9,227 nt of DNA from an uncultured Chloroflexota bacterium. Its GTDB lineage: Bacteria > Chloroflexota > Anaerolineae > Anaerolineales > Anaerolineaceae. Every line of letters begins with the position of its first letter. Positions within the stretch are counted from its first letter, which is position 1. The notes beneath the pieces are model-generated. The model was not told the origin of the DNA, made no database searches, and saw only the letters and a program-made list of their open reading frames with translations. The stretch is taken from the NCBI GenBank assembly GCA_902795255.1, contig CADBKS010000118.1:1-9227 (forward strand), read 5' to 3'. A program made the translations under genes and the position numbers. This document shows positions 1 through 9,227 of the stretch, in pieces.

Positions 1-805
1 CCTTTGCCGGTGCCGCGCTGCGGTTCCCGGACAAAGAGCGTCTCCGGCGCCAGCGGATCACCGGGCCGAGCAGCTTGCGGAGACAGTATTTTGCATAGAT
101 CACGGAAAAAACAGAACCGCCGTTGCGCTTATGGATGCGCAGCATATCCGGCCAGCAGCGGTCATCCTCCGCGATCGTCTTGGCATCCGCATGCAGACGG
201 AAAGCCGCCCACGGGGTCGTTTCGGACAGGTACCGTATTTCAGAGACCTTTGCCAGCCGCAGCCACAGGTCATAGTCCATGGCAAAATAGATCGAATCAT
301 CCAGCGGTCCGACCTGTTTCCAGAGATCCGCGCGCCAGAAAGAAGCCTGCTGCGGGATATGCACATATCCCTGCGTGAGTTTCCGGTAATCGGTCTGCTT
401 CGCGTTGAACCGGCCGATCACGTTTCCTTCCGCGTCGATAAAATCGCAGTTCCCGTAAACCAGTCCGCATTCCGGATGCGCAGTCAGATATTCGACGGCC
501 TCCCGCACCGCATGCGGGTACAGGATATCGTCCGAATTCAGCCAGGCCAGGATCGCTCCGTTCGCACGGGAAAAGCCCTTATTGATGGCATCCGTCTGCC
601 CTTTATCCTTCACCGACTCCCAGTAAGCCAGCCGGTCTTCGTACTTTTGGATGATCTCCGCGCTGCCGTCCGTCGAGCCGCCATCCATGATGATATATTC
701 AATATTCGGATAATCCTGCTCCAGGACCGAGCGGATGGTCTTTTCAAGGTAAGGCGCCTGATTGAATGAAGGCGTAACGATCGTTACCAGCGGATCATGA
801 TCCAT
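1..805 (-). CDS. Family 2 glycosyltransferase, 3' end beyond the window
   Basis: I translated this frame by hand from the ATG at 805-803; it stays open for 268 codons to the window edge, so the C-terminus is missing. The protein opens with a GT-A fold signature: VTIVTPSFNQ at residues 7-16, MDGGSTDGS at 40-48, and the metal/nucleotide-sugar motif NSDD at 90-93. Family 2 enzymes transfer a sugar from a nucleotide-sugar to a growing glycan on the cytoplasmic side. A later FRLHADAKT block (202-210) closely matches ARFHADAKN in the GT2 encoded at 2357-3322, so the two are paralogues. The basic tail (RWRRRR near 251-256) may contact the membrane. The ATG lies one base after the TAG stop of the upstream membrane glycosyltransferase, so translation is probably coupled. 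Donor and acceptor cannot be read from sequence. Confidence 0.9.
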   Translation of the reverse strand, partial: MDHDPLVTIVTPSFNQAPYLEKTIRSVLEQDYPNIEYIIMDGGSTDGSAEIIQKYEDRLAYWESVKDKGQTDAINKGFSRANGAILAWLNSDDILYPHAVREAVEYLTAHPECGLVYGNCDFIDAEGNVIGRFNAKQTDYRKLTQGYVHIPQQASFWRADLWKQVGPLDDSIYFAMDYDLWLRLAKVSEIRYLSETTPWAAFRLHADAKTIAEDDRCWPDMLRIHKRNGGSVFSVIYAKYCLRKLLGPVIRWRRRRSLSGNRSAAPAK

Positions 806-806
806 A

Positions 807-2297
807 CTAATTTCCCAAATCAAAAATGATGTAATCGGCACCCTGACGGTAAACAGTTGCCGTTTCGTTCAGATAGCGCTGCAGCCGGGGCTGCTCATAA
901 AACTTTTCAAGATCCGTCACCACCAGCCATTTGTAATTCCAGAAGGTGGTGTTCAGTTTCACCAGCGCATCGTATTCCCCTAGTGACTCAACCGAAGTAT
1001 CCCAGATCATCGGATTGTGCAGCGCCCAATAGGTCATGCCGCCACCGTAATCATCCATAATGCCGATCGTGCTGATCCGGTTTTCGTAAGGCTCCAGCTC
1101 ATCCGCCCAGTCGATCCAGCGCTGCGGCCATTCCCGGTAATCCCGGCGGTGCAGCGTCATCACGCTGTCGGCAGCCCACCACACGCACAGAAGGACCGCA
1201 CAGCAGATCCCCGCGGCAGGTACAAAGCGGCTCTGTTTCCGGGCCGCCTTCATCATGCCGCGCACCGCGCATTTCACCAGCGAAGCCAATCCGACGGCTA
1301 TAAACGGGAAGAGCAGCAGCTGATAATAATCATGCGTGCCGATATGATGCGGCAGTGACAGCCCATAGAGAATATACCCCGCGAAATACGCCAGCCAGGA
1401 GGCCCGACTGTTCCGGTCCCGGAGCATCAGGATCCCGAAAAGCGCCGCAAAGAAAAGCGGGACCGAGAATACCTGATCGATCATCCGCATCCAGCGGACG
1501 TAAAACGCCGGGCGCAGCAATTCGGACAGGAAAAACCGGCCCTGATACTGCTGAACGAGGAAGCCTTTAACGAAATACCCCCAATAATTATACGCAAGCA
1601 TCGGCGCCAGCGCAAGGAAGGCAGCCAGCCACACATACCGGTTCTTTAATGTATTTTTCAGGGTTTGAGAGCTGATCAGTCCGGCAGCCATCGCCAGTCC
1701 CAGCGGGAAAGCGGCGACCTGCTTGACCAGGATGCACAGCCCGGCGCACAGCCCTGCAGCCAGTGCGCGCGGGAGAGAATCCGGTTTTTCGGTCCACCGC
1801 TTCAGCAGGAACATGGTCCAGCCCAGCAGGCAGACCATGATGATATCCGGCTGGAAAGACCGGGATGCGGTCACGCCGTACGGGAAGAATAGGTACCAGC
1901 CCAGGGCGGCGAACATGCCTGCCGTCCCGAGCAATCCGTCCGTGAGGAATAAAAGGGCGATGCCGCCGGCCAGCCAGAACAGGACCGATGTAAAACGGGG
2001 GATCCGCAGATCCGCCGCTCCGAACACCCGGTACAGCCCGGCAGTGATCTTCTCGTAAATGGGCGGCTCGATCCAGGGCTCCTGCGTCCCGATGATCATC
2101 GCCTCCCGCTCATATTCAGCGCTCTGCCCTTCCAGATGACCGCCGGCGCGCAGGTAGAACCCGCGGGCCATCAGCGCGGAATGCATCTGCCGGGCCGGAT
2201 GAAAATCGAGCGGTGGATCATCAAAATCCGCCAGCCGCAGCGCGAACCCGGCGGCAAAGATCAGAATGATCAGGATCGTCTTCAGGCTTTTTTTCAT
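807..2297 (-). CDS. GT39-like integral membrane glycosyltransferase
   Basis: A 496-residue membrane protein if it starts at the ATG at 2297 (MKKSLKTILI), which gives a clean N-terminal membrane helix. A start at 2330 adds 11 residues, and neither site has a strong Shine-Dalgarno. Roughly ten hydrophobic segments fill residues 5-380. A soluble, presumably extracytoplasmic, domain of about 115 residues follows. Acidic residues after the first helix (RLADFDDPPLDFHPAR, 21-36) and WIEPP (75-79) lie where ArnT/PMT-like enzymes carry catalytic acids, and GTHDYYQL (320-327) resembles the loop found in GT39-type proteins. Such enzymes use polyprenyl-phosphate-linked sugars outside the membrane to modify lipid, glycan or protein. 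It sits between two GT2 genes in a glycan operon, 59 bases after one stop and one base before the next ATG. Exact donor and acceptor are unknown. Confidence 0.85.
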   Translation of the reverse strand: MKKSLKTILIILIFAAGFALRLADFDDPPLDFHPARQMHSALMARGFYLRAGGHLEGQSAEYEREAMIIGTQEPWIEPPIYEKITAGLYRVFGAADLRIPRFTSVLFWLAGGIALLFLTDGLLGTAGMFAALGWYLFFPYGVTASRSFQPDIIMVCLLGWTMFLLKRWTEKPDSLPRALAAGLCAGLCILVKQVAAFPLGLAMAAGLISSQTLKNTLKNRYVWLAAFLALAPMLAYNYWGYFVKGFLVQQYQGRFFLSELLRPAFYVRWMRMIDQVFSVPLFFAALFGILMLRDRNSRASWLAYFAGYILYGLSLPHHIGTHDYYQLLLFPFIAVGLASLVKCAVRGMMKAARKQSRFVPAAGICCAVLLCVWWAADSVMTLHRRDYREWPQRWIDWADELEPYENRISTIGIMDDYGGGMTYWALHNPMIWDTSVESLGEYDALVKLNTTFWNYKWLVVTDLEKFYEQPRLQRYLNETATVYRQGADYIIFDLGN

Positions 2298-2356
2298 ACA
2301 ATGACCAGCAACGGCAGCACCCGTACACATGACACGGCCTGCTGCCGGAAATAATT

Positions 2357-3322
2357 CTAACTTTCTTTAAGGTACTTCCTGTAATCGCTCAGACTTTCGA
2401 GACGTTTGGCCGAGCGTTCCCGAAAAGTCCGTTCAGCCGCAGAAGGGCTGACCGCCATCAGGACCGTCAGCGCCAGCCGGTTTTTATCTTCCAGGACCCG
2501 CTGCGGGTACAGACGGAAAGCCCGGGCATAAGCCTTCAGGCTCTTTCCGGCCTCCCCGGCATCGGAAAGATAATGCGCATCCAGCCAGGCCGCACCGCCG
2601 CGGATCTTTTTTTCGATCGGGGCCGCTTTCTCCGCTGTCAGCGGATCGCTCAGCATCCAGTCCGCCAGCCGGTAAGCCTCTTTGCCGAAGTCCCCGGCAT
2701 GTGCACGGTTCTTGGCATCTGCATGGAACCGCGCAGCTGCCAGCGGCTCCGGAAGATAGGCAAATTTTCCGTCCGCGATCATACGCAGCCACAGATGGTG
2801 GTCCAGCAGATAGGAATAGCTCAGATCCAGCCCGCCGGCACGTTCCCATGCCGAACGGCGGAAAAAGACCCCGGGCTGGGAGATCACGCGGAAGCTCATC
2901 AGATCTTCAGCCGAATACGGGGCAAAGCGCATCACATTGATCAGCCGGCCTTCACCGTCGATCGAAAGCACATCCCCGTAAACCGCGTCCACATCCGGAT
3001 GATCGGCAAGGAACCCCAGCGCCTTGCGCGCGGCCCCGGGCAGGAAGAGGTCGTCCGAATTCAGCCAACCGATCACCTCGCCGTGTGTCCGGGCAGCCCC
3101 TTTGTTGACCGCATCCGCCTGTCCGCGGTCCTTTTCACTGACCCAGCCGCTGAGACGGGGAGCGTACTGACGGATCAGCTCCGTGCTTCCGTCAGTGGAT
3201 CCGCCATCCATGACCACATATTCCATCCCCGGAATATCCTGGGACAACACGGAATCCATGGTCTGCCTCAGGTAAGCGGCCTGGTTGAATGAAGGAGTGA
3301 TCACGGAAAAAGACGGCAGCAT
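2357..3322 (-). CDS. Family 2 glycosyltransferase
   Basis: A complete 321-residue cytoplasmic glycosyltransferase of the GT-A type. Visible motifs are FSVITPSFNQ (5-14), MDGGSTDGS (38-46), GQADAVNKG (68-76) and the NSDD metal-binding motif (88-91), followed by a DHHLWLR block typical of the acceptor side. The last 70 or so residues are helical and basic and probably an accessory tail. The start ATG at 3322 is six bases after the TGA of the DUF115 gene. The Shine-Dalgarno GAGG (3330-3327) overlaps that stop, so the two are translationally coupled. It is clearly paralogous to the partial GT2 at 1-805 across the catalytic domain and the HADAK block. It is likely to add one sugar of the surface polysaccharide; the sugar is not predictable. 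Confidence 0.92.
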   Translation of the reverse strand: MLPSFSVITPSFNQAAYLRQTMDSVLSQDIPGMEYVVMDGGSTDGSTELIRQYAPRLSGWVSEKDRGQADAVNKGAARTHGEVIGWLNSDDLFLPGAARKALGFLADHPDVDAVYGDVLSIDGEGRLINVMRFAPYSAEDLMSFRVISQPGVFFRRSAWERAGGLDLSYSYLLDHHLWLRMIADGKFAYLPEPLAAARFHADAKNRAHAGDFGKEAYRLADWMLSDPLTAEKAAPIEKKIRGGAAWLDAHYLSDAGEAGKSLKAYARAFRLYPQRVLEDKNRLALTVLMAVSPSAAERTFRERSAKRLESLSDYRKYLKES

Positions 3323-3328
3323 GGGGCC

Positions 3329-4135
3329 TCAGAACAGTGAATCGTAAGCGACCTTCGGATAGACCTGCAGCTTGCCGCCGATCGTGGCATCCACGATCTC
3401 ACGGCCATCCGCTTTATAAGCCTCGCGGGCCATGATGTAAGCCCGTTCGGATGTATCCAGATCCGGCAGCTGCCAGCGGAACCCCTTGCCGAAATAACCG
3501 GCATTGAAGTGGTTCGGATCATCCCCCTGGGAGACGACCGTTTCATTCGGTTTTCCCTTCGTCGCGAAACTGTGATCAACACCGATCAGGATCACCTTGC
3601 TGAACCCGAGAAAATATGCCGTCTGGAGCGCCATATAAGTCACCGTGGCCCCTTCCCACATCCGCTTCCGGATGTCCGTGGCAAAGGTCGGGCCGGTATA
3701 GGTACCGTAAAGATAGAAAAGGTTCTCCGCGGGACGGACCCATTTTTTATGGCGCAGCGAAACGAAACGGGGCATCGTCAGCTTTTCGATGTCTTCATGT
3801 GTCTGTTCCGCAACGAGATCGTTGACACAGAGATAATAGGTCGTTTCAAAACCCATCTCCGGGAAAGCAAGATAAATGCGGTTCAGGCCGAAGGTATATT
3901 CATTTTTCAGCTTCGTCAGATCCGTCTGCTTGAGGCTGGGGCCGTTGCCGATAATAAAGCAGCGCTCGCCCTTGCGGCTGTCTTTCAGCGCGGCAAGACG
4001 TTCGATCGTGTCGCGGCGTTCCGGGCTGAAATAAGCATCGGGAATGTCCTTCAGGCGCTTCGTCCCGTCAATGAGGGACCGCGCCGCGTTCAGGACCGGC
4101 TCCGGTGTGATTTTTTTGATCGTATCCTTCAGCAT
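3329..4135 (-). CDS. DUF115 / MptE-like protein, candidate sugar transferase
   Basis: A 268-residue soluble protein. The N-terminal nucleotide-binding-like signature IIGNGPSL (61-68) is followed by GLNRIYLAF (83-91), TYMALQTAYFLGF (166-178), LIGVDHSF (183-190), NHFNAGYFGKG (208-218) and DATIGGKLQVYP (249-260). This pattern belongs to DUF115, usually annotated as 6-hydroxymethylpterin pyrophosphokinase MptE-like. That label comes from archaeal MptE; in bacteria the same fold occurs in Maf flagellin glycosylation factors, whose central domain resembles GT42 sialyltransferases. Pterin synthesis is therefore unlikely here. Given the cytidylyltransferase two genes upstream, I infer a CMP-sugar transferase or glycan-related role. 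The ATG shares its A with the TAA stop of the upstream dehydrogenase (TAATG), indicating tight coupling. The family call is firm; the function is inferred. Confidence 0.85.
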   Translation of the reverse strand: MLKDTIKKITPEPVLNAARSLIDGTKRLKDIPDAYFSPERRDTIERLAALKDSRKGERCFIIGNGPSLKQTDLTKLKNEYTFGLNRIYLAFPEMGFETTYYLCVNDLVAEQTHEDIEKLTMPRFVSLRHKKWVRPAENLFYLYGTYTGPTFATDIRKRMWEGATVTYMALQTAYFLGFSKVILIGVDHSFATKGKPNETVVSQGDDPNHFNAGYFGKGFRWQLPDLDTSERAYIMAREAYKADGREIVDATIGGKLQVYPKVAYDSLF

Positions 4136-5112
4136 TACATCGTCTTTCTGACTTCTTCGAAGTCATCATGCGGTATATCCAGCCCGATAAGCAGGTTTTT
4201 GATCGTGTTCCAGTGGACCCGTTCACAGGCCAGCGGACTGAAATTCGAGTTATGCGGGGCGATCAGTACATTGGGCATGGACCGCAGCGGGGAATCCATC
4301 GGCAGCGGTTCGGTTTCGAACACGTCCATCGCCGCCCCGGCGATCTTTCCGGCAGCCAGCGCTTCGGCCAGGGCCTTTTCGTCCACGACCGGGCCGCGGG
4401 ATGTGTTGATCAGGAACGCGGTCGGCTTCATCATTGAGAGGGTCTTCTCGTTGATCAGATGGCGGGAAGTCGGGTTCAGGTCGGTATGGCAGGTCACGAA
4501 ATCCGATTCGTTCAGCAGCTGCTCCAGCGGGACCTGTTCAATATGATTTTCGATCAGAAAATCCGGTTTGATCTGGACGATATCGTTCATCAGGATCCGG
4601 GCACCGAACGGGCGGATACGCCGGGCGACAGCCTGACCGATATTCCCCGCGCCGATGATCCCGACAGTCGTCTCGGAAAGCGTGGTGATCGCCGGCTTAT
4701 CCCATTTTCCCTCATGCATCGTGCGGTCCATAAACGGCAGGGAACGGGCAAAGCTCAGCATGTACCCGATGGCGGTTTCAGATACCGGGATGGTAAAAGC
4801 GTTAAGGGTGTTTCCAATCATCACGCCAAATTTTTTGCAGGCAGCCTGGTCGATCGCATCGATCCCGGTCCCCCATTTGGAGACGACCTTCAGCCGCGGG
4901 CTGCAGGCTTCGATCACGCGTGCGCTGTAAACGTCATCGCCGCAGATCGTACCGTCGAACTGACCGGCGTATTTCAAAATATCTTCTTCCAGCAGTTTCT
5001 GCTTCACATCCGGAACGATCATCTCCAGGCCATAGTGCCCTTCGAGTACCTTGCGGAACCGTTCCACGGAAGTCATCATATAAGGTGCGGAAAAAATAAT
5101 CGTTTTTTTCAT
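4135..5112 (-). CDS. D-2-hydroxyacid dehydrogenase, phosphoglycerate dehydrogenase-like
   Basis: A 325-residue NAD(P)-dependent dehydrogenase of the SerA/2-hydroxyacid family, of ordinary length for the short form without ACT domains. The substrate loop KWGTGID is at 79-85 and the Rossmann motif GAGNIG at 154-159, with D177 after the second strand as the probable NAD-ribose acidic residue. The catalytic set is present: R239 in NTSRG, E268 in DVFETEP and H287 in APHNS. The family interconverts 2-keto acids and D-2-hydroxyacids. Its place between a cytidylyltransferase (24-base gap) and DUF115 (1-base overlap) suggests it makes a glycan precursor or substituent rather than serving serine synthesis; this is inference. 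The start is supported by GAGGAA at 5122-5117, four bases before the ATG. Confidence 0.92.
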   Translation of the reverse strand: MKKTIIFSAPYMMTSVERFRKVLEGHYGLEMIVPDVKQKLLEEDILKYAGQFDGTICGDDVYSARVIEACSPRLKVVSKWGTGIDAIDQAACKKFGVMIGNTLNAFTIPVSETAIGYMLSFARSLPFMDRTMHEGKWDKPAITTLSETTVGIIGAGNIGQAVARRIRPFGARILMNDIVQIKPDFLIENHIEQVPLEQLLNESDFVTCHTDLNPTSRHLINEKTLSMMKPTAFLINTSRGPVVDEKALAEALAAGKIAGAAMDVFETEPLPMDSPLRSMPNVLIAPHNSNFSPLACERVHWNTIKNLLIGLDIPHDDFEEVRKTM

Positions 5113-5116
5113 CTCA

Positions 5117-5122
5117 TTCCTC
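5117..5122 (-). promoter_or_regulatory. Shine-Dalgarno site of the hydroxyacid dehydrogenase gene
   Basis: On the minus strand GAGGAA is followed by TGAG and then the ATG at 5112. It fixes that start. A strong Shine-Dalgarno is unusual in Bacteroidota, so it also supports a different taxonomic origin for the left part of the window. Confidence 0.75.
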
Positions 5123-5136
5123 GATTCAGCAGCCGT

Positions 5137-5799
5137 TCAGGACTGCATTTTCATCATCATTTCAGTGATGATAAACTCAAATTCATCATCAATATCCTGG
5201 GCTTCCCGTGCGGCGATCGGGAAAAGCAGGGGACGCTCCCCGATGCGAGTGTGCTTCTTTTCAAGAACTTCACGGGTAAAAATATAAATGCAGGAGTTTT
5301 CTTCATAGATCGGGGGCAGGTCCTGCGTCCTCAGCAGAATATTCTGATTGTGATTGATCGGACGGGCCAGCTGATCCCAGAAGCGCTTTTTCACCTCAGT
5401 GACAGAAAACAGGGAGTCATACATATAAGCCTTATCCTGCAATGCCCGGATCGCAGCCGAGATCGTTTCCGGTTTCAGCAGCGGGTTCGTACAGTGTGTC
5501 TGCAGATAATAATCCGCAGGGATCTGAGACGTATCATACATCAGGATCTCATTCATGGGCACATCATCCGCACGCAGATGTTCCGGACGGAGCAGCGCCG
5601 AGACCTGCGGAAAATCCTTCGCAAGTCCCTCGATCACGACCGGGCTGTCCGTGTCAACGACCACCTGATCGATTTCCGGGACCTTCAGAAGGGATTCCAT
5701 GATATAGTGATAGAGCGGTTTTCCGTTCATCAGGCGGTAATTCTTTCCGCTGACACGAACGGAATGATGGCGCATCGGCACAAAAGCAGCGATCTTCAT
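5137..5799 (-). CDS. Acylneuraminate cytidylyltransferase-family protein
   Basis: A 220-residue protein of the NeuA/KdsB-like nucleotidyltransferase family, which activates acidic sugars with CTP to give CMP-sugars. The N-terminal nucleotide loop reads VPMRHHSVRVSGKN (8-21), a variant of the usual IPARGGSKGIPRKN that keeps the Arg, Ser and Lys-Asn positions. Other family features are NGKPLYHYIM, VVVDTDS (47-53), LQTHCTNPLLKPET, YEENSCIYIF and a C-terminal DIDDEFEF equivalent to the usual DID.pxD metal motif. The gene overlaps the upstream capsule-type gene by four bases (ATGA), and the hydroxyacid dehydrogenase follows after 24 bases. The substrate could be a nonulosonic acid, a Kdo-like sugar or something else; no sugar-acid synthase is visible, so I assign no symbol. 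Confidence 0.85.
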   Translation of the reverse strand: MKIAAFVPMRHHSVRVSGKNYRLMNGKPLYHYIMESLLKVPEIDQVVVDTDSPVVIEGLAKDFPQVSALLRPEHLRADDVPMNEILMYDTSQIPADYYLQTHCTNPLLKPETISAAIRALQDKAYMYDSLFSVTEVKKRFWDQLARPINHNQNILLRTQDLPPIYEENSCIYIFTREVLEKKHTRIGERPLLFPIAAREAQDIDDEFEFIITEMMMKMQS

Positions 5800-6470
5800 G
5801 CGTTTTCTTCAGTTCCTTCCTGCATTTCTTTGTTTTCGTCCGGCAGAACAAACGGTTTTCCGTCCAGAATGCCGTCCCGGATCACCCGCAGTACCGGATC
5901 CTTTTCCGGATCCAGCGCTTCCGCCGGAAAACTGCGGATCTTCACATAACCCTTCCATGTCTCATCCGGTTCAATAAAAGTCTCAAAAGAGAGAGCCGTA
6001 TGGAAAAACTGGTAATACATAAATCGGCGGGCCGTCATACGGAAAGAATCCGGGACAGAGACAGCGTCGCATTTGAGCAGTTCTTCAGCTTTCTCAAGAT
6101 ATTCGGGGATGGTTTTCGGGAAATAACACAGCGGGACCTGGGTATAACGAGACCGTCCGCCGCAGAGTACGGCAGCACCCATGACCGCAGCTTCCAGACC
6201 GATCGTGGAGTTGTAGACCATGATGAACTTGGAAGCCCGGATCAGTTCATATGAGCTGAGATACTCCTCCGGCGGCACATAGATCACGTTCGGAAGATAG
6301 GTCATCTGGTTTTTCCGGACCCAGTCCGAAACCGTTTCATGCGATTCCTTACCCGGCCGTGTTTCATCCGGATGCGCACGGATCACGAAAAGCGTATCCG
6401 AATGCGCTTCAATGATCTTTTTCACTTCATCGATCTTCGAGGCTGCCTCTTCGTATTTCTTGTCCTTGAT
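5796..6470 (-). CDS. Capsule-polysaccharide-synthesis-type glycosyltransferase, C-terminal part only
   Basis: About 225 residues, ending at the TGA at 5798-5796. They carry the C-terminal signature of capsule synthesis/surface carbohydrate glycosyltransferases (KpsS/LipB-like, GT-B fold): LFVIRAHPDE (coding from about 6389), a PNVIYVPPEE...SSYELIRAS block, then VYNSTIGLEAAVMG around 6221-6180, which corresponds to the nucleotide-sugar-binding end of such enzymes. Members of this group transfer Kdo or other sugars during capsule assembly. The true N-terminal domain and start codon are absent. Reading upstream, the frame runs straight into a Bacteroidota TonB receptor near 6470, which I consider a contig join. 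The stop overlaps the cytidylyltransferase start by four bases, so this end belongs to the left-hand operon. The right boundary is uncertain by about 15 bases. Confidence 0.72.
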   Translation of the reverse strand: MKDKKYEEAASKIDEVKKIIEAHSDTLFVIRAHPDETRPGKESHETVSDWVRKNQMTYLPNVIYVPPEEYLSSYELIRASKFIMVYNSTIGLEAAVMGAAVLCGGRSRYTQVPLCYFPKTIPEYLEKAEELLKCDAVSVPDSFRMTARRFMYYQFFHTALSFETFIEPDETWKGYVKIRSFPAEALDPEKDPVLRVIRDGILDGKPFVLPDENKEMQEGTEENA

Positions 6471-6490
6471 GAGATCCTTGACCTCTCGGC
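6455..6490. other. Probable chimeric junction between two genomes
   Basis: Within one continuous minus-strand frame (5796-7400), SusC-like receptor sequence (ending near GKDISREVKDL) changes to capsule-type glycosyltransferase sequence (from about KKYEEAASK). No known architecture joins an outer-membrane receptor plug to a cytoplasmic GT-B domain. Base composition, ribosome-binding style and gene content differ on the two sides. The 7-base word TCCTTGA occurs at 6463-6469 and 6475-6481, a possible short homology behind a false join. Confidence 0.8.
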
Positions 6491-7337
6491 TGATGTCTTT
6501 GCCCGTATTATTGTTTTTATAGAGCATCAGCGTTTGGAAACAGCGACCTAACTGCAGGGCCATGAGTCTGTTGTCATAGACCAGCTTGTCGCCCCAGCCT
6601 GCGCCGAGATCTGTCGCCCCGCTCCACACGTCGCGTGCATCGTCACGAAGCACAAGGTTCAGGGCAGCCTGGTCACTGAACTGCACACCGCGCAGCGACT
6701 TGACAGGCTGGTGATTCTGTAGTACCTGGACAGAGACAATCTTGTCAGCCGGAATGTTTTTATTGCCCATGCCATACTGCCGTCCAAGCAGGTCCAGTCC
6801 CTCGACATAGTATTTATTAATCGCCTTGCCCTGATACTTTACGGTACCATCGCTGCTCACTTCCAATCCCGGCATCTTGGCAATGACGTCGCCAATACTT
6901 CTGTCTTGCTTTTGCCGGAAGCCGGCAACGGAGTAGGTCAGTGTGTCGCTGTGACTTTGTATACGGTGGCTTTTGACGACTACCTCCTTGAGGTGGTATG
7001 CCTCAGCCACAAGCGTAAAGGTCATGCCGTCAGACACACTCTTGTGCGGTGTGACCAGCGTGCGGTAGCCAAGTGCGCTGACGCTGACAGACACCGTAGA
7101 GTCAGGCAATTGAATGGTGAAACTGCCATCATCTTTAGAGATGGCATAGGTCATCATCTTGTCATGGGCATTGAGGGTGGTGACATTGGCATAGCCCACA
7201 GCAGCCCCTTTGCTGTCGCGTACATAACCTGACAATGTCTGTCCCTGAACAAACAGAGGCAAGAACAACAAGAGTAGCACTAAGCTACTCTTCCATAAAA
7301 ATACAAGTCTTCTTTTTGTAAATGAGCGGTTTTCCAT
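6471..7337 (-). CDS. SusC-like TonB-dependent receptor, N-terminal part only
   Basis: About 289 residues survive from the ATG at 7337 (MENRSFTK), chosen because it gives a clean signal peptide: basic KRR, a long Leu/Val run, then VQGQT. The ATG at 7400 would put 21 unrelated residues in front. A carboxypeptidase-regulatory-like beta domain follows (LSGYVRDSKG, then DGSFTIQLPD, then VSALGYRT). Next comes the plug domain, with IGDVIAKMPGLEVSSDG, INKYYVEGLDLLG and a stretch ending AALNLVLRD. Such receptors import ligands across the outer membrane using TonB energy. Nearly the whole beta-barrel is missing because the sequence switches to a glycosyltransferase near 6470. The gene overlaps the GLPGLI gene by 53 bases in another frame, implying coupled expression. 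The ligand is unknown. Confidence 0.8.
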
Positions 7338-8091
7338 CTGGTCCCCAGGCACGATCAATAATACCAAAGCGTTTGTTAAACTCTTGTGGATTGGCTGCAT
7401 CTTCTATCATTAGCTGATGAAACTCTTCCCGTGTGGTAGCAATGGCCTTCTTATCTCTTGGCCGCTTCATGAGACTGTTTCCTTTTTTGATCTCTATGGC
7501 CTCAAAGCTAAAGATGCCACTATTGTCATGAGCATAGAGAATCAATCCTGGGAGACCATGTAACTTCCAAGGGCCGGCTTGAGAGGGTATAGAAGGCGCA
7601 AAGCATGCTGTCCACACACGACCACCCATCTCTACTTTAGCAAACTGGCAAGGAATGTCAAGTATTGTTGTATCACGCTGCTCCATTGTCCATCGTAGAG
7701 TGGGAATTGGTTCCTTATATACAAAGGTCTTGAGAATCTTGTCCGTTACAGTACGAACACCTTGTGAAGGATAGTTTTCAAAAATAGAATAAAACTGACG
7801 TGGCGTAGGATATTTTCCCAATTCTAACATAAATTGCTCCCTTGGCATAAGAGTACGCATTGCGGTTTCCGCAAGTTCTTCGCGCTGTCTCTGCCATCTG
7901 CCATAGAAAGCGGTCCGATGATCTCCTATTTCCAATACCTTTTCCTCTGTATAGGCATTCGGCCTTTCCATGTAATTTCTAAAAGTAGCAATGTAGTTCA
8001 CCTGCATGCGCACAGAATCCGTACCCTGAGCACAGAGTGAAAAAAAAGGAAAATATAATAGGAAAATAAAAAGAAATGATTTCTTCACCAT
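7285..8091 (-). CDS. GLPGLI family secreted protein
   Basis: A 268-residue exported protein from the ATG at 8091 (MVKKSFLFIF). A TTG at 8100 would add three residues but is less likely. A hydrophobic signal peptide ends near CAQG, placing it in the periplasm or outer membrane. The naming motif GLPGLI is at 179-184, within KLHGLPGLIL, after WTACFAPSIPSQAGPW. This fits the conserved core of the Bacteroidota GLPGLI family (TIGR01200), which has no established biochemical function but often neighbours outer-membrane receptors. It lies 54 bases after the small peptide gene, and its end overlaps the receptor start by 53 bases, so all three probably form one transcript. Its length is usual for the family. 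Confidence 0.93.
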   Translation of the reverse strand: MVKKSFLFIFLLYFPFFSLCAQGTDSVRMQVNYIATFRNYMERPNAYTEEKVLEIGDHRTAFYGRWQRQREELAETAMRTLMPREQFMLELGKYPTPRQFYSIFENYPSQGVRTVTDKILKTFVYKEPIPTLRWTMEQRDTTILDIPCQFAKVEMGGRVWTACFAPSIPSQAGPWKLHGLPGLILYAHDNSGIFSFEAIEIKKGNSLMKRPRDKKAIATTREEFHQLMIEDAANPQEFNKRFGIIDRAWGPDGKPLIYKKKTCIFMEE

Positions 8092-8107
8092 ATAGTTCAA
8101 ATGGAAA

Positions 8108-8139
8108 TGCCCAGTATAGAATGATCACTAAACTGGGCA
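8108..8139 (-). terminator. Intergenic hairpin, possible attenuator or partial terminator
   Basis: TGCCCAGT (8108-8115) and ACTGGGCA (8132-8139) form a perfect 8-bp stem around a 16-base loop. It lies between the peptide stop at 8146 and the GLPGLI ATG at 8091. In the minus-strand RNA the stem is followed by UUUCCAUUUG, a broken U-run. It could partly terminate or process the transcript, giving more peptide message than receptor message. It is not a textbook terminator. Confidence 0.5.
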
Positions 8140-8145
8140 ATTGTC

Positions 8146-8340
8146 TTAGCAATCTTCTCTGGAATATCTATCAATAGCATCTACAGCCTCGTCCGCTGTT
8201 GCATCTGTTGCAATCTGATGGACAGTTCCACAGTCTGTAATGATGAACTGTGCAGCTACATCGTTACCACCATTGTCTGCATGTGCTTGTACGCAAAAGC
8301 CTACTAAGGCTAAAGCTACTACGAAAATTGATTTCTTCAT
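8146..8340 (-). CDS. Small secreted peptide with two cysteines in the mature part
   Basis: A 64-residue protein beginning at the ATG at 8340. Residues 1-21 form a signal peptide: MKK, a hydrophobic core VVALALVGFCVQ and an AHA cleavage site. The mature part of about 43 residues starts at DNGGND and is acidic. It contains C37 in the segment FIITDCGTVHQI and a final cysteine, C64, which could form a disulfide. C16 sits in the hydrophobic core without a lipobox, so this is not an obvious lipoprotein. It is the first gene of a minus-strand cassette with the GLPGLI and TonB receptor genes, and a hairpin separates it from them. I do not recognise a named family; it could be a signal, a transported ligand, an antimicrobial precursor or a receptor-associated factor. 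The signal peptide and A-rich leader make it a credible real gene. Confidence 0.75.
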   Translation of the reverse strand: MKKSIFVVALALVGFCVQAHADNGGNDVAAQFIITDCGTVHQIATDATADEAVDAIDRYSREDC

Positions 8341-8362
8341 ACGATTTATTTTTTTTAGTTAT

Positions 8363-8387
8363 AAGCGATAGAATTTTTCTATCGCTT
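8363..8387 (-). promoter_or_regulatory. Perfect 9-bp inverted repeat in the peptide gene leader
   Basis: AAGCGATAG (8363-8371) and CTATCGCTT (8379-8387) are perfect complements around a 7-base A/T loop. The element lies 22 bases before the peptide ATG at 8340, probably inside the 5' untranslated RNA. In the minus-strand RNA the stem is followed by A-rich rather than U-rich sequence, so it is not an intrinsic terminator there. It could be an RNA stability element or translation control, or an operator at the DNA level. Confidence 0.5.
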
Positions 8388-8480
8388 GCAAGGATAGAAA
8401 TTTTCCTTCAAAATAAAAATATTCAGCTTGTTTTTTTTGTATTTATTAGCATTTTAAGCTGCAATACTTTCAAAAAGATA

Positions 8481-8516
8481 CAAAGATAATTCGGAATCTG
8501 CTACATAAGTTACAAC
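8481..8516 (-). promoter_or_regulatory. Candidate Bacteroidota promoter for the peptide cassette
   Basis: On the minus strand TATCTTTG (8488-8481) matches the Bacteroidota -7 consensus TAnnTTTG. A partial -33 element, GTTG (8516-8513), lies 24 bases upstream, slightly far. It would give a leader of roughly 130 bases containing the inverted repeat. This is pattern matching only. Confidence 0.45.
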
Positions 8517-8690
8517 ATCTCGAGAAACCAAGCAGCAGATAATAGGTTCGTACTTTCTTTACAACACCTTTACTCTTGTTGTTCATAATGTGGCCTTCCT
8601 AGGAAATTTGAAATGAGATGTGAAATGCTTGACACAGGTCAATAAAAGCTATGAATATACGGTTTTTATGCTAATCGACTGCCTTTTTCT

Positions 8691-8721
8691 TTTGTATATT
8701 GATGCTGTTTTTATACCTTTG
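8691..8721 (+). promoter_or_regulatory. Candidate Bacteroidota promoter for the LysO genes
   Basis: TTTG (8691-8694), a 19-base spacer and TACCTTTG (8714-8721) fit the Bacteroidota -33/-7 promoter pattern well. Transcription would begin about 20 bases before the ATG at 8748. The sequence AAAGGAAAAGA directly precedes that ATG. Confidence 0.6.
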
Positions 8722-8747
8722 CAAGCCGTAACCAATAAAGGAAAAGA

Positions 8748-9029
8748 ATGTTCAGAATAATTATCGTCTTGCTTGTTGGCATCGTGCTGGGCTTTGCGCT
8801 GCGTCGAGTGCCACATATCCATAAAGTAGAGACAAGCGCTCATTATACTATCTGTGCCCTGCTTTTTGTTTTCGGACTGGGCTTGGGCTCCAACGACTCG
8901 CTGATGCACAACATCGGCTTCTACGGTCTTGAGGCCGTCGTGGTGGCATTGTTGGGCATGGCCGGTAGCTTTGGTGCTGCCCGTCTGTTCAACCATCTCA
9001 TGCAGAAAAAGACGGAGGGCGAGGCATGA
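8748..9029 (+). CDS. lysO: LysO-type lysine exporter, N-terminal subunit
   Basis: A 93-residue membrane protein with three hydrophobic segments (about 3-18, 32-47, 58-80) and the conserved FVFGLGLGSND region (40-50). This corresponds to the N-terminal part of LysO (formerly YbjE, DUF340), the inner-membrane lysine exporter of E. coli, which is a single chain of about 300 residues. In many Bacteroidales the transporter is encoded as two adjacent genes, and this is the small first half. The next gene starts inside its stop codon (ATGA, 9026-9029). A good promoter candidate lies just upstream, on the strand opposite to the rest of the window. In E. coli lysO responds to lysine, but I see no recognisable lysine riboswitch in the short leader here. 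Confidence 0.85.
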   Translation: MFRIIIVLLVGIVLGFALRRVPHIHKVETSAHYTICALLFVFGLGLGSNDSLMHNIGFYGLEAVVVALLGMAGSFGAARLFNHLMQKKTEGEA

Positions 9030-9227
9030 AAGGCAATCTTCTCTTGTTCGTTTCGCTGTTGGCCGGCATACTCGTAGGCATGTCGGGCGCCACGCCACAG
9101 TGGTTGCTCAATCCTCAGTTGCCGATGTTGCTCTTGGAGTTGCTCATCGTGCAGGTGGGTATGGGCATAGGATCTATGGAACATCTCGACCGGCTGTTTG
9201 CCGGATTCCGTTGGGAGATGCTGTTGC
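9026..9227 (+). CDS. lysO: LysO-type lysine exporter, C-terminal subunit, cut by window end
   Basis: Translated by hand from the ATG at 9026: 67 codons are open to the window edge. It begins MKGNLLLFVSLLAGILVGMS, a membrane helix. A second hydrophobic segment, LPMLLLELLIVQVGMGIGS, resembles the start of the LysO C-terminal half (LILLLFLVGIQL in E. coli LysO). The four-base ATGA overlap with the preceding gene implies translational coupling of the two halves. The complete second half in Bacteroidales is about 200 residues, so about two thirds is missing here. Confidence 0.85.
   Translation, partial: MKGNLLLFVSLLAGILVGMSGATPQWLLNPQLPMLLLELLIVQVGMGIGSMEHLDRLFAGFRWEMLL

Follow-up and report, generated by a model that had tools for sequence, protein, structure and literature searches.

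A probable assembly chimera joining Anaerolineaceae-type and Bacteroidota DNA within one open reading frame of a metagenome contig

A passage of PMC9795473 counts chimeric sequences, described there as the improper combination of two distinct replicons, among misassemblies. In one such form, the interspecies chimeric contig (or interspecies translocation), two parts map to two genomes and meet at a sharp switch point. The window examined here, a stretch of 9,227 nucleotides that is most likely a whole contig, is built likewise (Table 1). Its parts map to different genomes, and each parent is found intact across the breakpoint elsewhere. Nothing essential distinguishes the window from an interspecies chimeric contig; a 28-bp bridge between its two parts is an extra detail. 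Because two parents, each intact elsewhere, break sharply midway in two unrelated genes, we consider it very likely that the assembler produced the window as a chimeric metagenome contig. That it is an artefact of one kind or the other, arising in assembly or in the library, is close to certain. A sequence-only reading of the same DNA had proposed that two unrelated genomes were falsely joined, and our comparisons support that proposal: intact relatives of both halves continue past the breakpoint, the other half is absent from the genomes tested, and the junction turned up nowhere else in the sequences searched.

Table 1. Coordinates of the two parents, the bridge, and the reading frames at the join.
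Feature	Position	Strand	Basis
Anaerolineaceae-type polysaccharide locus, left parent	1-6431		Collinearity with L004; Pfam
Hybrid open frame	5796-7400	-	534 aa, open across the join
Capsule-class glycosyltransferase, 3' part, truncated at the breakpoint	5796-6431	-	75-79% DNA identity to L004-L008
Bridge, matching neither parent	6432-6459		Alignments stop at 6431 and begin at 6460
Bacteroidota DNA, right parent	6460-9227		99.89% identical to G001:C21:47898-50664
Receptor-like gene, 5' part, truncated at the breakpoint	6460-7337	-	Pfam PF13620; intact in L032; P0002 98%
Two TCCTTGA copies	6463-6481		Both in the corresponding position of intact G001 DNA, not at the join

The right side had been read as Bacteroidota, and its near-identity to a Bacteroidota genome, G001, bears this out. 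G001 is the nearest of the genomes compared, having 33% of the window's sampled words in common with it, and it differs from the right part by 2 substitutions and 1 indel across 2,768 bases. When G001 was searched with the whole window, no match was found left of 6460, and only one other match, at 65%, was found elsewhere. The corresponding stretch of G001 (L032) carries the receptor-like gene uninterrupted past 6460, within an open stretch of 880 codons. Counted from its second methionine, which corresponds to window position 7337, the product is 858 aa long. A listed protein of that length, P0002, is 98% identical to the window's version across the part in common. The window, by comparison, retains roughly the first third of the gene. 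A search of 201 genomes of G001's family with positions 6300-7400 gave matches in 21, with at most two candidates scored per genome, and only the match in G001 was long and near-identical. Similarly, a junction search of six genomes matched G001 only, up to 6460.

The hybrid frame had been described as beginning as a TonB receptor. Pfam places a CarboxypepD_reg domain (PF13620, E 3.4e-12) at residues 55-129, but it reports no TonB-plug or barrel family in either the hybrid frame or the intact 858-aa P0002. We therefore call the gene receptor-like only, a label chosen from its regulatory domain and size. The adjoining gene (7285-8100) encodes a GLPGLI family protein, with a match above the curated cut-off. 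Among the relatives listed is P0026, named from Prevotella sp. kh1p2 (56% identity), and for this reason the right parent is probably Prevotella-related. At the right end of the window, on the plus strand (8748-9227), are two overlapping frames that both match Lys_export (LysO); one is 93 aa long, and the other is the start of a frame of 211 aa in G001. The LysO exporter appears to be split into two genes in the Bacteroidota lineage of the right parent.

The left side, whose identity was absent from the earlier reading, is by its sequence matches Anaerolineaceae-type (Chloroflexota), its relatives being Anaerolineaceae/Flexilinea-type MAGs from the ruminant gut. Pfam names its genes, in order, as GT2, a PMT_2-type glycosyltransferase, GT2, MptE-like, D-2-hydroxyacid dehydrogenase, cytidylyltransferase, and a glycosyltransferase fragment. 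The locus L004 matches in the same order, with 38-2228 at 75% and 2432-6431 at 79%, and the matches of L005 and L008, at 74-83% DNA identity, are broken into more pieces. The glycosyltransferase part was found at 16 loci in genome_contigs. Fifteen of these have titles naming Chloroflexi, Anaerolineae, Anaerolineales, Anaerolineaceae, Flexilinea, or Leptolinea, and one is titled Lachnospiraceae. Two of the 16 titles name goat gut sites, and the RUG isolates among the relatives are presumably from the rumen.

These relatives mark the left edge of the join. The pieces covering 5796-6431 in L004, L005, L006, L007, and L008 all stop at 6431. A wider search of 147 genomes of G594's family, in which the query also spans the cytidylyltransferase gene and at most two candidates were scored per genome, gave some match in 132, and the closest five (G594-G598) all stop at window position 6431 as well. 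No match right of 6431 was found in six Anaerolineaceae-type genomes, with 7 of 47 and 2 of 42 candidates left unscored in two of them.

The sequence-only reading also held that the frame ends as a capsule-type glycosyltransferase. This assignment stands, as Pfam places Capsule_synth at residues 316-420 (E 3.5e-4, 20.6 bits versus a cut-off of 20). The fragment resembles the Capsule_synth/BFO_1060-like glycosyltransferase of Anaerolineaceae-type loci: it is 95% identical to P0004 (531 aa) in the part in common, and its neighbors are ordered as in L004. P0004 itself falls just short of the Pfam cut-off (19.6 versus 20), and in NCBIfam it falls far short of the curated cut-offs. The glycosyltransferase of L004 is intact (8981-10633, 550 aa) and is preceded by a NeuB-family gene. 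Unlike Anaerolineaceae-type loci, the window has neither the N-terminal part of the transferase nor the upstream NeuB-family gene. The Anaerolineaceae-type cluster (1-6431; L004:8048-12315) comprises a NeuB-family synthase, a cytidylyltransferase, a D-2-hydroxyacid dehydrogenase, an MptE-like protein, and glycosyltransferases. The cytidylyltransferase is weakly like PseF/KDO types, and its NCBIfam matches and those of the synthase are below the curated cut-offs. This gene content suggests a surface glycan with nonulosonic acid.

The join itself is sharp, with near-identity to Bacteroidota DNA from 6460, homology to Anaerolineaceae-type loci up to 6431, and 28 bp between. In the coding direction, the bridge is preceded by DLIKD, from the receptor-like part, and followed by DEVKKI, from the transferase. 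Even with 3 mismatches allowed, a 38-base core, consisting of the bridge and short parental flanks, is absent from 393 genomes of G001's order, and viral_contigs contains no exact copy of it. A 30-base version was likewise not found at that tolerance in nine genomes, namely those of L004-L008, L010, L011, and L009 (G600), and G001. When the 28 bridge bases were searched alone, viral_contigs gave no exact match, and 120 genomes of G600's family gave none even when 2 mismatches were allowed. We infer that the bridge comes from a third sequence. A 45-bp match at 80% in G145, over part of the junction, was taken as chance; its reading frame resembles neither half.

The junction was also searched as a whole. 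A 60-base junction sequence is absent from all 38 loci compared. The fused protein, P0001, is found in the protein search as a single sequence on a single contig of 9,227 bases, the same length as the window. A search with 40 residues of the junction, covering proteins 0.55-1.75 times the length of the frame, returned P0001 and 10 others among 85 candidates scored; nine of the 10 are glycosyltransferase matches that the protein search had also listed, and the remaining one is P0121, which has a Capsule_synth domain. Among the 120 matches listed of 2,330, P0001 is the only protein to combine Pfam domains from the two halves. A PDB sequence search gave one insignificant match, to Sperm-associated antigen 1 (E 1.4).

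The 534 codons that stay open across the join could also reflect a real rearrangement, in which an Anaerolineaceae-type locus was transferred into a Bacteroidota chromosome, or the reverse, creating an in-frame receptor-glycosyltransferase fusion. We regard this explanation as extremely improbable. Both genes are truncated part-way, near-identical G001 keeps its gene uninterrupted, and the junction does not recur in the sequences searched. The parts are also too incomplete for a biological fusion gene: about 290 of 858 residues remain of the receptor-like protein and about 210 of 531-550 of the transferase, so that the fusion would lack the C-terminal two thirds of the former and the N-terminal half and more of the latter. 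Pfam identified no transposase or integrase among the 10 frames scanned or in the small frame 8149-8340, which has no Pfam family, and ARAGORN detected no tRNA in the 9,227 nt. The whole window has no megablast match among plasmids and phages.

Composition had been cited as evidence for the join. Contrary to the G+C contrast described earlier, there is no step at the join; each flank (5796-6431 and 6460-7337) has a G+C content of 51.1%, and the sides differ only as wholes (55.8% left versus 45.4% right). The contrast in Shine-Dalgarno sites proved weak, as a crude scan for the motif picked out just 2 of the 6 genes on the left and also the receptor-like start at 7337. The proposed tetranucleotide comparison was partly informative. 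In 1.5-kb stretches, which are too coarse to place the change at the join, the correlation to Anaerolineaceae-type loci is 0.75-0.82 for starts from 1 to 5501, 0.55 at 6001, and 0.23-0.28 from 6501. The correlation of the same stretches to G001 DNA outside the window is 0.04-0.26, then 0.42, and then 0.31-0.40. The right part as a whole correlates at 0.47 with outside-window G001 DNA and at 0.34-0.39 with L004, L005, and L008, but it is just as near to the Flexilinea locus L010 (0.47). Tetranucleotides thus favor a change of source, more clearly for the left part than for the right: the left part resembles Anaerolineaceae-type DNA and the right part does not, but they do not tie the right part to G001. 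That tie comes from near-identity rather than from the tetranucleotide profile.

The sequence-only reading had further suggested that the repeat TCCTTGA mediated the join. We rejected this proposal because the pair lies wholly in the Bacteroidota part and is present in the intact G001 gene. Such a repeat is also ordinary, since a second copy lies no more than 40 bp away for 48 7-mer positions of the window, or about 5 per kb.

Our results are most consistent with a join made by the assembler. The Bacteroidota fragment would have been joined to the Anaerolineaceae-type fragment via the 28-bp bridge, itself taken from an unsampled third sequence that is probably a lysine/glutamate-rich coding stretch with short words common to each parent. 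Through these shared words, the assembly graph could cross between the two genomes. The frame would then be open across the join by chance, and no such fusion protein would exist. An in-frame join by chance is expected in about 1 in 3 cases by our estimate, which we counted against this mechanism. Also weighing against it are the bridge, for which the searches gave no source, and the tetranucleotide profile of the right part, which is only moderately like that of G001 DNA outside the window. The join could instead have formed at the bench, if fragments were ligated or underwent template switching during library preparation or amplification and were then assembled at low local coverage. By reasoning, DNA of unrelated genomes would also meet abruptly if joined by this route, and ligation could have placed a short foreign piece between them; however, one chimeric molecule should seldom dictate the contig where either side has good coverage. 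We consider such a wet-lab origin unlikely and favor the assembler as the source.

A second contig carries the tail only of the same glycosyltransferase gene. In L009 (CADBXF010000039.1, a MAG contig titled Lachnospiraceae), positions 10001-10462 correspond to residues 368-521 of P0004 and lie inside an open frame (9842-10471) in which Pfam names nothing. Neither the upstream part of this frame nor, at E 1e-10, the rest of L009 matches L004-L008, and L010 shows no match at all. This contig appears to contain another false join, independent of the first and with its switch at a different point. Because L009 joins the tail of the gene to other DNA elsewhere, the pair of contigs suggests that this glycosyltransferase gene is prone to false joins.

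These observations bear on quality control, as the predicted hybrid P0001 appears in a protein search like any other protein. Taken at face value, the contig might misdirect binning or be read as evidence that genes were transferred between Bacteroidota and Chloroflexota.
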